Origin: Thunnus maccoyii
Lineage: Eukaryota; Chordata; Actinopteri; Scombriformes; Scombridae
Length of the DNA: 64,000 nucleotides
Direction of reading: 5' to 3'
Assembly (NCBI RefSeq): GCF_910596095.1
Contig: NC_056533.1
Coordinates: 4,959,501-5,023,500 of the forward strand
Below are positions 10,721 to 64,000 of the stretch, piece after piece. Each line of letters begins with the position of its first letter. The stretch's first letter is position 1. Under the pieces are notes generated by a model that ran no database searches, was not told where the DNA came from, and was given only the letters and a program-made list of their open reading frames with translations. Position numbers and translations under genes: made by a program.

Positions 10721-11279
10721 ATGTTTAATGATTCATTGAAACAAGGCTTCCTCCCCTCAACCTTATATCAAGCTTCAGTTTCGCTCATTCTCAAGAAGGA
10801 CAAGAATCCAGTAGAATGCAGCAGCTGGAGACCGATAAGTCTGCTAAATACAGATATAAAGCTCTTAGCCAAGGTCTTGGCACGCCATTTGGATCCTTGC
10901 CTGCCAGACATAATCTCTGAAGATCAAACAGGGTTTGTTAGAGGACAGCAGTTATCATCTAACATTACTTTCTCCTTGCACCTCTCAAGCGGTTGAAATG
11001 GTAATATTGTTTGATGCAGAGAAAGCCTTTGATTGGGTTGAGTGGGATTATTTGTTTTCTGTTCTGGGGAAATCTGGTTTTGGGTCTAAATTTATTTCTT
11101 GGATACGACTTTTATACACTGCCCCTACTGCCTGTGTGACAACTAAATCCCAAATGTCTGACTACTTCCCTCTAACAAGTGGAACTGTCAGTGCTTTCCA
11201 TCACTCTGAAATCCTCCCCACTCTTCACAGGTATTTACAGAGCTGGACTGGAACATCGAGTTTCTCTCTATGCCGATGA
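10721..11279 (+). pseudogene. L1 reverse transcriptase domain, first part
   Basis: This is the palm/fingers part of the L1 polymerase. It contains the conserved SLILKKDKNP and RPISLLNTDIK blocks, then SEDQTGF, then, in the neighbouring frame, the DAEKAFDWVEW block that carries the first catalytic aspartate. A frameshift near 10980 and a small deletion before the normal GxxQGCPLSP block break the gene; only a short GTVSAFHHS-like stretch remains where that block should be. Confidence 0.75.
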
Positions 11280-11919
11280 CCTTCTGTTCTATGTCACAGA
11301 CCCGGTTAACTGTGTAGATGATATTTTACAAATCTTAACAACCTTTGGGTCATTCTTGGGTTATAAGCTTTATATCAGTAAAAGCAAGTGTTTCTCTGTC
11401 AATGAGGCGGCTAAGCAAATTCCACCAGGTATCCTTCCATTCCAATTAGCCCACACCTGTTTCCATTATTTAGGTGTCAGCATTGCTCATTCCCTCCCCT
11501 CTCTCCATAAAAGTAATTTTACCAAGTTGGAAATTAAATCTGATTTGAACCTCTGGGAATCTCTCCCTCTCTGTCTGATAGGCAGAATCAACTCCATTAA
11601 AATGAATATTCTGCCCAGACTCTTGTTTCTTTTCCAGTGTCTTCCAATATTTCTACCAATATCTTTTTTTCTGAATGTTAGACCAAACAATTTCAAAACT
11701 TTATTTGGGCAGGCAAGAACCCAAGAGCACGTAGAGCAGTACTACAGAGAAGCAAAAGGGATGGGAGTCTTGCGTTGCTTAACCTCTGATTTTATTATTA
11801 GGCAGCCAATCTTCAAAAAATTCATACCTGGTGTAACTCTTCTAACCTTGAGTGGTGTATTATGGAGGGCAATTCTTCCCGTCCATCATCGCTGGCAGCT
11901 CTGGTCTGTGCTCCCTTGA
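11179..11919 (+). pseudogene. L1 reverse transcriptase, YADD block and thumb region
   Basis: A 246-codon open stretch keeps SLYADDLLFYV (the YADD catalytic box), then SFLGYKLYISKSKCFS and FHYLGVSI, then LPLCLIGRINSIKMNILPRLLFLFQ. All are standard in this order for vertebrate L1-clade ORF2. It overlaps the previous open stretch in another frame, marking the frameshift near 11200. The end is disrupted. Confidence 0.78.
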
Positions 11920-22797: not shown

Positions 22798-23764
22798 TCA
22801 GAATTTCAGTCTGCTTTTAACACTGATTTGTAAAATATATAGCCAAAATAATGTACGCAATGATGTTTGAATGAAAGCTCTTTCCAAACAGGCCCATTGG
22901 TTCTTCAGGACAGCTATGCACCACTGCACCACATTTCTCGTCTTTGTGTGTGCTGAACTGTAGCACTGCTCACTGATACTTGCTGGGTTTAGGTATGGGG
23001 ACATAAGCCATTTTCGCAGGGGATATCCTGAGTCTCCCAGCAACCTCCCAGGGTATCTTCCTGCCTCAAAGTCTCTCCAAAGGCTAGACTGCTTGAGGAT
23101 GAAGCTGTCATGCTTTGCCCCTGGCCATTTATTCACAGAATTTGTAATAACAAGGTCAGCATCACGCACAATCTGAGCGTTAAATGAATGGTATCCCTTC
23201 TTGTTCACAAAATCGTTTTTGTCTTTGGGTCTCGATTCTGATGTGTGTGCCATCTACACTGCCAAATATGTCGGGGAAACCGGCTATCTGGTAAGAGTTT
23301 CTGATGGGTCATATATTGTTAGTCAGTCTGAGTTGGAAATGTACATAGTCATTAAAGCGCTGACAAAATGATAGTGTGACTTACCTTATTACTCTACATA
23401 CAGTAGATTTATGCACTTGAATTGAATCACCAACCAAGTTTTGAAATGACCTTGTAGCAAAATATCTTGGAGCCAGACACAATTGTAGGGAAGGACTGAG
23501 GGCGCCATTTCTGTCCGTGTCATGTTGCAAGTCTGCTGCCAGCAAGTTGGTAATCCTCTGTATCTCCACTTGTGAAAAACCAAAGCACAAGTATAAATCA
23601 AAGTCATGATAAATGTCCAAGGGGTGTAATCTATCACGGAGAATGTGTTGCCGATGCAAAACAGCCGGTAAAATTCGCACCTCCTTCAAGTTATCCCACC
23701 TTTCGAAACGATGCACCATGCCAATCGCTATTTTACAGAGGACTTTACACCTACTAAGGGCCAA
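22798..23764 (-). pseudogene. HARBI1-like PIF/Harbinger transposase pseudogene
   Basis: Read leftwards from 23764, an N-terminal part (23764-23381) encodes LHPLDIYHDFDLYLCFGF, ITNLLAADL and VHKSTVCRVIR. A disrupted stretch follows, then GFPDIFGSVDGTHI (first catalytic D, near 23265), then in a shifted frame NKKGYHSFNAQIV, NKWPGAKHDSFI, LLGDSGYPL (second D) and a KTRNVVQWCIAVLK block. In active members the last block reads VVERxFGxLK, so the third acid E is replaced by Q. A frameshift lies between GTHIRIE and NDFVNKKG. An AG|GTAAGT donor near 23384 may mark an intron, but the frame does not join cleanly. Fish HARBI1-like transposases have this domain order; this copy is dead. Confidence 0.8.
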
Positions 23765-56575: not shown

Positions 56576-57096
56576 ATGTTCAATGCCTGGATCGTGTTGT
56601 TTCTCCTCCTGCCAGGTAAATTAATACTTAATTCAGACTAATTTAAAGTTGATTTATATGTCAGTATCAGTGTAACAAACGAAATGTGATGGCACTATCA
56701 CCACACTTGCAGGGGCGAAGGCTTTCCTGATCCACAACACACGCCGCAGCCTGTGCCTGGAGGACACAGCACCTGCAGGTGAAGTTCTGCTGAAGAAGTG
56801 CAACCTGGACTCAAAGTCTCAGCAGTGGGTCTGGGTAGACCAGAACATGCTGATGTGTGTTGGATCGTCTAGATGTTTGTCAGCCCAGCACAGAAAACCT
56901 ATCCAGACCCAGTCCTGCCATGATCCAGAGGTAGATGCTGCAGGGCTCATGTGGGACTGTGACAGGGACAGACTGATCAGCAGGAACACCTCAATGCTGC
57001 TTTCCATAGACGGCCGGCGTCTGACTCTGTCCCAAGACAGCAAACATTCAAAATGGAGATCTCTTGATGAAGGGGACATCTGCCAGGAAAAACTCA
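56576..57096 (+). CDS. Exons 1-2: signal peptide and mannose-receptor-type cysteine-rich domain
   Basis: Exon 1 (56576-56615) encodes MFNAWIVLFLLLP plus the first base of a glycine codon. Exon 2 (56713-57096) starts GAKAFLIHNTRRSLCLE and ends ICQEKL. The pattern FLI.N, then C, then C....SQ.W.W, an MCV..RCL block, and a final W.C.RD.L block fits the N-terminal cysteine-rich lectin domain of the mannose receptor family (ricin-B-like beta-trefoil), which in MRC1 binds sulfated sugars. The exon 2 donor is A|GTAAGA, a strong site. If it were not used, the frame would end a few codons later (stop at 57108-57110), giving a small secreted lectin of about 145 residues. Confidence 0.65.
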
Positions 57097-57788
57097 GTAA
57101 GAATTTTTAAAGAAGAATTAAATTAGATTTCTAGTCTCCATTTTTGAATGGTTTCCAGACCAAATTGAGGTAGAGAAATGTGCATCCACATGCAGGCACA
57201 TCACTGAGAAGTAGTGTAAATGAAGTGTGAAATGAAGTGGTTTATGTTACCTTTTAATAGAAACATCTCAGTGCCATTGTATCATACAAGACTGCAGTGA
57301 CAGAGGCAGAGGGAGATAATTGTAATCAGTCACACAGTCTGTCCATTTGGGCTACAAACTACAAGACCTCAGACTCACAGTTTTCATTTAAATTTTAAAC
57401 TTTCATTTACACATTCTCTAACATAGAAGGTCTGAAACTGGACCTAAATATTGCAGAGAATGACTGTATATGTAGTGTCAGACCAAGCATTCACTCTGTC
57501 CTCCTCAGTCAGGGAGCAGACAAGCGTTAACCTAATTTATTTTCATGGTGATTAATAAGCTTTACTAGAAATTAAAGCAATTGTTTTATCAACCTGCTTT
57601 CCTGTTAATTACGACAGTGGCACATTCTTTATTTTGGACAACCCATAAAACACTTGTACACAAAGCTTGTTCTTATTTGAGCAGAATATTGTTATTTCAG
57701 GATATAAATGAGTAAATTAGCTATTAGCTTGCTTAATTTTCTTATACATTTGAATGAAATCAAATGAAAGCCTTGTACATTTTAGGTA

Positions 57789-57824
<36 letters not shown>

Positions 57825-59729
57825 GAGAATCTTTGTCTTAACACACATATTTAATGCTTCTATATTAAAAATAGATCAAGTGAATGTGTGTTATGTGAAA
57901 GGTGTCACTCATAGTGACAAACCCAAAGAGAATTGTCCCCCAAGTCTGCAATTAATCAACTTCAATTTTATTATTCCGAAGGAAACTTGGTTTGCTGGCA
58001 GGCACAACAAACAGACAACAGGAATACACTGACTTTATCAATGAGCAGCAACAATCAATAGTCAAGGACATAAAAAGCAAAATATACATAAAAAATAATG
58101 AATAAAAACAGAATATTTAAAATTAACTATACAAAAAATAATAAAAACAGCAGCCAAAAACAGAAACACCATCCTTTGCATGAAAAGTTGAAGATCAGAT
58201 TAAGACCAATGCCAAATATAGAAGCAAATAAAGTGTAGTTCCGGGTAAGATAAAGTGCAGCTGTGCAAGTCTTAGCATTACATTAAGAGATTCACTCTCT
58301 CAGTGGCAACAGAAGTTTACTTTTACAATAAATGTCTGGATAACATTATACTCAGTGGTGCCCATCGCAATTTACCAGTGAGTTTTACTCAGAGCCCTGG
58401 TTTTACCTACGGTAGCTACAGTAAGCTACAATCCATTACCTGTGCTTGGCCTGGGCATGCATCAGGCAGAAAACAGTCAGTCAATCAGAAGAGAGGGGCA
58501 TTGAGCAGACACAAAACAGCCTGTTCTTGGTTGTTCTTGGAGATGGCTTTGGTACTTCAAACCACAAAAACATTTTCTTATGGATGTCAAGATTTCAAAC
58601 ACTGGAAAAGTGCAAAGTATGTGACCTTTAAAAAACTTGTTTGATCACACTAACCCTGAAAGACGGCTCCAAATGTAAAATTGCTGTTTTGACAGACACT
58701 GTTACATTTACATAAATTAACTTTTACAACAAATGATCAATGATTTGACTTGGTTGGAATAAAAAGGTTTTGAGAATTGTGTAGCATGAGACTGATGATA
58801 ATGAAAGGTAAGAGTGCTGCTATGTGCTGTGATGCAGAGTGTCTGTATGTCTGGGCTTCTTGCAGGATCCAGGAGGGCGTCTGATGAACCAGACGAGTTT
58901 GAGTTTGCAGAGCAGACAGGCAAGGTGGGAGCCATGACACAGGAGGAGAGAGAGTACCTCCGCTGGTTTTATCGTACCGAGGACCGTGAGTACTGCTCTT
59001 AAAAAAAGGAAAACGAAAATTTGCAGCACCATGTCACGCTTTCAACAACTGAAATTTGATTTCTTGTATGTTATCCTTCTGATTCTCATATTTTACATCT
59101 GCTTCTTTGCTTATCTGTCCTATTCTATATTATAAAGAGTGTTGTCTTCTTCCTGTTACAGCCACTATATGGAAGTTTGTTCTGCTGGGTCTTGCCTTCA
59201 TTTGCCTTCTTGTTGGTTTTCTCTTGTTGGGAATGGGAGCCATGGCCAGCAAGTATGAACTTTCTGAAAAAGTCCACTTTCCTAGCAGCACTTGTTTTGA
59301 TGACACACACAGTAGGAAAATTAACATACTGTATGTCATTTTGAGAGATAGTTGTGTCTTTTTTTCCCCTACAGGAACAGAAAAAAGATCGCAAAGTACA
59401 AAGCAGCAGCTGCTCTGGCTCACAAAAGCGAGGTTGAGGAGCTGCGGGTCATTTCACAGCTCAGAGAGAACAGTGCCAGCACACCATCCCCAGAGAGGCT
59501 GCTGCAGGGTACCGAGGCTTCCCTGTCCAATGAGAAGGTGAGCGAGCTCAAAGCAGGGGACATCATGGTCACATGGAAAAATGGCAACACCTCCTGCCTA
59601 TACTCGGATCCTGTAGCTGAGGCGGAGCTGCCGGAGGAGGAGAAGGAGGTTGAAGTAGTGGAGGAGAAACAGGAGGAGGTCTCAGCTGCTGAGCTGGAGG
59701 CTCATGAAGGAGACGAAACCATGAAGTGA
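56576..59729 (+). CDS. slc51b: OST-beta-like (Slc51b) protein with N-terminal R-type lectin domain
   Basis: Predicted five-exon gene: 56576-56615, 56713-57096, 58866-58985, 59162-59252 and 59375-59729. All introns are GT-AG with phases 1, 1, 1 and 2, giving 990 nt and 329 residues with no stop. Residues 1-16 (MFNAWIVLFLLLPGAK) look like a signal peptide. Residues 17-139 form a cysteine-rich R-type lectin domain with seven cysteines (SLCLED, KKCNL, QQWVW, MWDCD). Then come RWFYRTEDPTIW, a single membrane segment (about 185-207), a basic stop-transfer NRKKIAKYK, and an acidic tail with ELKAGDIMVTWKNGN. The C-terminal half matches organic solute transporter subunit beta, which pairs with OST-alpha to export bile acids and steroids across basolateral membranes. 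The neighbouring rasl12 supports orthology. Exon 3 also has an in-frame MTQEEREYLRWFY, so a shorter classical protein could start there. Confidence 0.72.
57788..57824. repeat. (TTA)n microsatellite in intron 2
   Basis: About 12 TTA units within the 1.77-kb intron between the lectin exon and the OST-beta exons. Confidence 0.92.
58866..59729 (+). CDS. slc51b: Exons 3-5: OST-beta core (membrane segment and cytosolic tail)
   Basis: Exon 3 (58866-58985) encodes SRRASDEPDEFEF and MTQEEREYLRWFYRTED. Exon 4 (59162-59252) encodes the membrane helix TIWKFVLLGLAFICLLVGF and MGAMASK. Exon 5 (59375-59729) encodes the basic NRKKIAKYK, an alanine-rich helix, LLQGTEASLSNEKVSELKAGD, MVTWKNGNTSCLYSD and a run of E residues ending GDETMK. 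OST-beta proteins share the W-F-R-x-E-D block before the helix, arginine/lysine residues after it, and the ELK.GD...W.DGN motif. OST-beta is N-out, so the lectin domain would be extracellular. The last 60 residues are extremely acidic. Confidence 0.82.
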
Positions 59730-60046: not shown

Positions 60047-60052
60047 AATAAA
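60047..60052 (+). terminator. Polyadenylation signal AATAAA for the slc51b-like gene
   Basis: Two AATAAA hexamers (60047-60052 and 60060-60065) lie about 320 bp after the stop codon, on the coding strand, and would give a short 3' untranslated region. Confidence 0.6.
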
Positions 60053-60659
60053 ACACTGGAATAAATCTTTGAACAGGTTACATCCAAAGTCATAATAAGG
60101 GTATAAAGATTAAAAAATATCAATTTGTTTTAATTTAGGCAAATCAGCCCAAACAAGGAGCAAATGTTAAAGGGTGTATATTATATGGTAACAGTGTTTT
60201 GTGACATGGGGAAGAGTAGTTTGTTACTGTATATTCATATTGCTGAAAATAAAATACTCCTGAACGATGAACTGTATATTTGCATGAAAGAGGTCTCTTT
60301 AAGGGGATCTTAGCCCCTACTGGCTCCCCCATAATTCCAAAAACTGGCTACCATCCCCTTTGAAGTTCAGTATGTACAATCCTGTAACGATTTCTTAGAA
60401 AAGAACAGACAGGCGCAGTGACTTCCCGGAGTCTCATTTTCACAAATTTTACCAGTTTTGGTACCATTGTGCTTGAGACCTTTACTAAACCTGTTATCAC
60501 TCATATCTGGCATCCCACACTGAAAGCAGAAGTGCTGGGTGAATTAACTGTTTGTTCATCAAGAAATAGTTCCAGTTCCAGAAATAGTTCCTAAAATCAC
60601 AAATTTTATATTTCTGTTTGTGTACAGATTAAACTTATGTTTTCATATGTTTTCACTTC

Positions 60660-63562: not shown

Positions 63563-63905
63563 TCAGAAGATCTTGAAGCCTTTGAGCAGGGTGAGTGTGG
63601 CAGCCCGCCGTTTGCTCTGGGCCCTGGATGTCTTCACGGTGACCAGCTTGGCCGTGGCAGGGGCTGGCAGCTCCTTGTAGCAGGGGGTGGTGAAGGAGGG
63701 CGCCGAGGAGAGACTGAGCAGCGCTCTGTCCTCACTGATGTAGACAGCTGGAACCAGACAGCCACGCTTCCCGTCCCGCCTCGCCCTCCTCACCGCCTCG
63801 TAGAAGACATGTTGCACGGAGCGGAAGTCCAGACAGGCCGACACCTCGTAGAACAAACAGCCATAACGAGAGGCGAGGGCTTCACCATCAGACTTACTCA
63901 CCTGC
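63563..63905 (-). CDS. rasl12: RASL12 (Ras-like family 12), last coding exon
   Basis: On the minus strand an acceptor TTCTTCTCAG ends at 63906 and the exon opens with a partial codon followed by QVSKSDGEALASRYGCLFYEVSACLDF. It contains the VSA element of the G5 guanine-binding motif, then VQHVFYEAVRRARR, a variable middle, and the highly conserved ending AKLVTVKTSRAQSKRRAATLTLLKGFKIF with a stop at 63563-63565. This ending is characteristic of vertebrate RASL12, a small GTPase of the RERG-like group. It has no CAAX box, as is usual there, so it is not prenylated. The G1-G4 motifs are on exons beyond the right edge. It is convergent with the slc51b-like gene; both are neighbours on human 15q22, supporting the identification. 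Confidence 0.93.
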
Positions 63906-64000
63906 CTGAGAAGAAATCATGTTTGACAAGTACCACAGTAAAAATACAATTCCACTAAAACATACAGTGTAATCTTACTGTCCTAAGATTCAGATTCAGA

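Follow-up and report, generated by a model that had tools for sequence, protein, structure and literature searches.

The window, a stretch of 64,000 nucleotides of Thunnus maccoyii DNA, carries on its + strand a five-exon gene that is slc51b (OST-beta) in its ray-finned-fish form. Joining the exons gave a single frame of 990 nt, coding for 329 amino acids and a stop codon. All four introns have GT donors and AG acceptors, with phases of 1, 1, 1 and 2 as calculated from exon lengths, and their total length from exon coordinates is 2,164 bases. Exon 1 (56576..56615) contains the start codon and a putative signal peptide (MFNAWIVLFLLLPG...), based on the frame, the GT donor and a hydrophobic window at residues 2-20. 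Exon 2 (56713..57096, 384 nt, with a phase 1 intron on either side) encodes a CysR, or R-type beta-trefoil, lectin domain of the mannose receptor type at residues ~16-141. Exon 3 (58866..58985) encodes a candidate cleavage motif, a variable acidic linker and the start of the OST-beta domain (MTQEEREYLRWFYRTED); the codons of the furin-type motif R142-S-R-R145 occupy 58866..58876, with the first base of R142 contributed by position 57096 on exon 2. The OST-beta transmembrane helix falls on exon 4 (59162..59252), as located by hydropathy and by sequence alignment to the solved OST-beta chains 9unv and 9ljg, and exon 5 (59375..59729) encodes a positive juxtamembrane stretch, the cytosolic tail and the stop codon. 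Beyond the stop codon, the same strand has two AATAAA hexamers resembling poly(A) signals, which begin at 60047 and 60060 (60047..60065). Intron 2 contains an (ATT)n microsatellite (57789-57824, + strand) and, at 58832 and 58847, in-frame ATGs that read into exon 3 (58832..58865, + strand), the putative start of a lectin-less isoform.

Pfam matches agreed with this layout. OSTbeta (PF15048) was found at residues 161-248 (E 3.4e-16, 59.9 bits vs a cut-off of 27), while CysR_MRC2_N (PF24562, residues 16-138, E 2e-10) and Ricin_B_lectin (PF00652, residues 18-120, E 1.2e-7) were both over their curated cut-offs. Hydropathy is highest at residues 2-20, pointing to a signal peptide, and at 187-205, pointing to a single membrane helix; the KNRKK stretch shortly past this helix places basic residues on the predicted cytosolic side. 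The 329-residue model is 100% identical over its full length to "solute carrier family 51 subunit beta [Thunnus thynnus]". A chance arrangement was excluded by this identical record and by the recurrence of the architecture in teleosts, gar and bowfin. With its clean splice signals and single frame, the five-exon fusion of signal peptide, lectin and OST-beta proposed in the sequence-only reading was confirmed, and it is almost certainly one real gene product.

Downstream of this gene, a last-exon-like frame on the - strand (63563-63916) matched Ras weakly over 63563-63913 (E 3.1e-4, 20.8 bits vs a cut-off of 21.6) and probably belongs to a small GTPase gene of the RASL type that extends beyond the window, presumably RASL12-like, RASL12 being, as we assume, a neighbour of human SLC51B. 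A DDE_Tnp_4 transposase fragment (22801-23253, - strand, E 1.7e-24) is presumably Harbinger-like, going by the family name. At 10914-11919 on the + strand, two overlapping RVT_1 fragments under the cut-off mark a decayed LINE-like element. Rfam and tRNA scans over the window gave no matches.

Relatives were collected in three protein searches, of which the best 120 of 172, the best 120 of 161 and 18 of 18 matches gave 147 different listed proteins. These include many close kin, so the counts given below are not independent. The lectin cysteines C28, C43 and C82 occur on one chain with the OST-beta residues W175 and W185 in 143 of the 147 listed relatives; the remaining four (P0110, P0114, P0115 and P0119) start within the lectin, still have its last cysteine and continue into OST-beta. 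Named carriers among the matches listed are tuna, salmon, trout, pike, cod, carp, catfish, eel, tarpon, a mormyrid, gar (P0127) and bowfin (P0131). On the aligned sequences, the fusion is not limited to the tuna genome and is the usual form in the fish proteins listed. Its presence in gar and bowfin as well as in teleosts dates the join to the gar/bowfin-teleost split or earlier. All 18 proteins of the third search, which included gar, were neopterygian; that no sturgeon, bichir, shark or tetrapod protein appeared is uninformative, since the search depends on 5-residue words in common and on a length window. Tarpon (Megalops) has a second, diverged lectin/OST-beta gene (P0136 and P0139, which match P0118 over 88% of its length at 48% and 47% identity), and the tail of P0136 is repetitive, with IPQEIQTPQD-like units.

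The suggested AlphaFold check gave, for the lectin, a confident beta-trefoil whose best structural match was the CysR domain of the mannose receptor, with matches mainly over model residues 12-144. Together, Pfam, alignment and this predicted model show the beta-trefoil and CysR cysteines of an R-type lectin. The domain had been described as a seven-cysteine lectin, which is correct for the tuna protein but not for the family: six cysteines are present in 141-143 of the 143 listed rows long enough to include the first lectin cysteines, and C62 in just 75 of them. C62, on exon 2, is missing in gar, bowfin, the checked eels and carps and three of four checked salmonid rows; the fourth, P0096, has it. 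Among the 75 listed rows that bear it, 64 have seven outer cysteines, an odd number. An unpaired seventh cysteine was considered as a bond to OST-alpha and set aside as not general, being found in 75 of 143 listed rows. The tuna and gar lectins share 36% identity (43/121), with six cysteines kept.

For the comparison of ligand pockets, Trp117 of the mannose receptor was taken to be W136 of its precursor. This residue stacks on the sugar, and the other residues of the 4-SO4-GalNAc pocket have been named (PMC4635314, PMC10914487). HMMER and two MAFFT alignments placed no Trp at that position in the fish lectin, giving a gap or a non-Trp residue; the two MAFFT modes conflict at the C-terminal end, partly since the mannose receptor letters ended at position 123. 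Further 4-SO4-GalNAc pocket residues also differ. Sulfated-GalNAc binding was rejected because neither Trp117 nor these residues are conserved, and the proposal that the lectin senses sulfated ligands found no support. The lack of this pocket removes a ligand and not the fold, since DEC205 and Endo180 are without it too. Relative to CysR domains of the mannose receptor family (MRC1, MRC2/Endo180, PLA2R, DEC205, FcRY), the fish lectin is about 22% identical and differs in that no FNII or C-type lectin domains come after it.

The join of exons 2 and 3 reads ...CQEKL-RSRR-ASDE, and R-X-[K/R]-R stands at this place in 140 of the 147 listed relatives, or in 26 of 28 after thinning to <60% identity. 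Within the 147 listed rows, P4 is Arg in 146, P1 is Arg in 142 and P2 is Arg or Lys in 144, while P3 is free (S, L, F, H, T, V, P and others). When each outer domain was shuffled (200 trials), the motif turned up anywhere in an average of 15.8 of 147 rows, and no trial exceeded 27, vs the 140 observed among the matches listed. The only other aligned place with R-X-[K/R]-R in more than three listed rows is residues 212-215, past the helix (six rows). The seven listed exceptions are three catfishes, which hold other basic runs (RSRKQR, RARKQR and RSRMQR), one Myxocyprinus copy and one conger model, in which the dibasic site is absent, and the two diverged tarpon copies P0136 and P0139, which have RSNR or RFNR instead. 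R-X-X-R is retained near the junction in 145 of the 147. The most economical reading of the motif would be a furin-type convertase site.

In the alignment, the linker that follows is much less conserved than the motif, the commonest residue at columns 148-164 being found in 18-67% of the 147 listed rows. This contrast is partly pair-dependent, since over ten species the linker residues shared with tuna run from 1/17 (bowfin) through 2/21 (gar) to 13/21 (milkfish). Model confidence is lowest between lectin and helix, with pLDDT <50 at residues 153-156 and 158-162. The motif itself ends a model helix (136-146) and is not wholly in a loop, so access of a protease is uncertain. Since a conserved furin-type motif stands at the junction, before a less conserved linker, the lectin is probably clipped off OST-beta there; cutting at the motif itself is suggested by a consensus, which is no proof of processing.

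These elements can be arranged into a mechanism in which a secretory precursor is cut by a convertase into mature OST-beta and a separate lectin. The precursor would consist of the signal peptide, the CysR lectin, the furin-type site RSRR|AS, a short acidic linker, the membrane helix and the cytosolic tail. The signal peptide would bring the lectin into the ER lumen and set the N-out topology; the lectin would fold first, probably during pairing of OST-alpha and OST-beta, in which it might help. A furin-like convertase would then cut after RSRR late in the secretory pathway. The mature OST-beta left by the cut would have about 35-40 residues in its outer tail, near the length of the human extracellular N-tail (residues 1-35; PMC4924846). 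The CysR lectin would be secreted as a separate protein whose production keeps step with that of the transporter. The assembly role, the fate of the lectin and its ligand are the most conjectural steps, and the account as a whole is likely on balance. The lectin had been placed outside the cell, and this stands, since the protein has a predicted signal peptide and the N-tail of OST-beta is extracellular (PMC4924846).

Alternatively, the lectin could stay joined to OST-beta at the basolateral surface, tethering the transporter or sensing glycans, with the basic motif being structural or unprocessed. The fusion is real and conserved, a consensus motif is no guarantee of cutting, and its position at a helix end in the model is consistent with an uncut junction. 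However, a near-invariant R-X-[K/R]-R in which K and R are exchanged and P3 varies freely is hard to explain without a protease, and the sulfated-GalNAc pocket is not conserved. The lasting covalent tether originally proposed is doubtful, since the furin-type motif lies exactly at the junction in 140 of the 147 listed proteins, and we consider it rather unlikely that the lectin remains attached.

Under the cleavage mechanism, a special case concerns the assembly of the transporter. Human OST-beta needs L20L21 for association with OST-alpha, and these leucines are conserved from skate to human, as reported in PMC4924846. They correspond to fish residues 169-170, in an ungapped part of the match to the OST-beta chain, where the human alignment is short. 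None of the 147 listed fish rows has LL at these positions, and QR, QK, ER and EK predominate. LL occurs elsewhere in the outer tail in five of the 147 listed rows, in four of them, gar included, directly before the conserved Trp; a shifted di-leucine motif is therefore possible in a few fishes, gar among them. The mammalian assembly motif is absent from its usual place in lectin-bearing fish, and a role of the lectin as a pro-domain is therefore worth testing. The lectin would provide a cleaved signal peptide, chaperone OST-alpha/beta assembly in place of L20L21, and then be discarded. The replacement of a pair reported as essential in human OST-beta (PMC4924846), together with the conserved cut site, argues for such a role. 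Against it, the role is read from sequence, the displaced LL pairs may do the same work in a few fishes, and the 36% lectin identity to gar with six cysteines kept would also fit ligand binding. It is put forward tentatively, as a rather unlikely but not exclusive form of the cleavage mechanism.

Evidence that the junction is transcribed as one unit came from proteins found only in 'lgn' contigs, which were taken as assemblies of sequencing reads. All 21 of them among the matches listed cross the join of exons 2 and 3 without an intron, eight holding signal-peptide residues and 13 starting at a Met within the lectin. The longest contigs of this source have 1,039-2,834 bases; in P0047, the frame fills 1,002 of 1,207 contig bases and leaves 205, vs 2,164 bases of intron in tuna. 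Being short and intron-free, these contigs were read as spliced transcripts. In addition, trout slc51b qPCR primers printed in PMC13157367, translated by eye, gave EAEELQ and VVTWND; both occur in the trout fusion P0090, so the trout slc51b of that study is the fusion gene. The same paper reports slc51b mRNA in adipose tissue, describes slc51b as a major distal-gut transporter, citing others, and gives bile-acid induction by RNA-seq, with no significant change in qPCR. That a gene prediction had joined two neighbouring genes, with OST-beta beginning without the lectin in intron 2 (ATG 58832 or 58847), is compatible with those in-frame ATGs directly 5' of exon 3 and with the candidate poly(A) signals of intron 2 (five AATAAA and three ATTAAA, though expected in AT-rich DNA), but this was rejected as very improbable, given the short intron-free contigs and the recurrence of the identical join, in perfect phase, in gar, bowfin and teleosts. 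A minor lectin-less OST-beta isoform from a promoter in intron 2, using the same ATGs, is possible. Thus, the single gene and single transcript of the sequence-only reading are supported by the intron-free junction, the recurrence across fishes and the matching phase; together with the extracellular lectin they are retained, while its lasting tether is doubtful and sulfated-ligand sensing found no support.

Furin-processed type I membrane precursors combine a signal peptide, a luminal domain, R-X-[K/R]-R and a membrane helix. Fish slc51b shares these parts, with a folded luminal domain and a conserved R-X-[K/R]-R between it and the helix, and here processing is predicted. To our knowledge, no transporter subunit bearing a lectin pro-domain has been described as processed in this way. 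Like SLC51B/OST-beta of human, mouse and skate, the fish protein has PF15048, a single helix and W..Y-R-x-E-D before the helix; its N-out topology is carried over from the human protein, and NCBI records of fish orthologues bear the same name. The OST-beta PDB chains, presumably human, have 128-141 residues and no lectin, whereas the fish form adds the signal peptide, the CysR lectin and the furin-type site. The fish protein may likewise form a functional bile-acid/steroid transporter with OST-alpha.

Public records already show the fusion by domain name, as a "Ricin B lectin domain-containing" protein; what appears new here is the putative cleavage consensus at the junction and the missing di-leucine. 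No description of the fusion, the motif or the missing di-leucine was found in the titles and abstract openings searched, a set with few subscription papers and no cryo-EM paper of OST. Taken furthest, neopterygian slc51b could be a two-product gene, in which one precursor, probably regulated by bile acids, gives rise to OST-beta and to a secreted lectin at a constant ratio. The lectin would serve first as an assembly chaperone in place of the di-leucine and later as a circulating or basolateral lectin of gut and liver; this extension is speculative and distinctly doubtful. From gar to tuna, fish OST-beta is a natural variant that is born with a possibly cleavable lectin, and slc51b of trout, medaka and Danio is no simple stand-in for human SLC51B. 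A secreted lectin linked to bile-acid transport may exist in these fishes and would be measurable in standard fish models.
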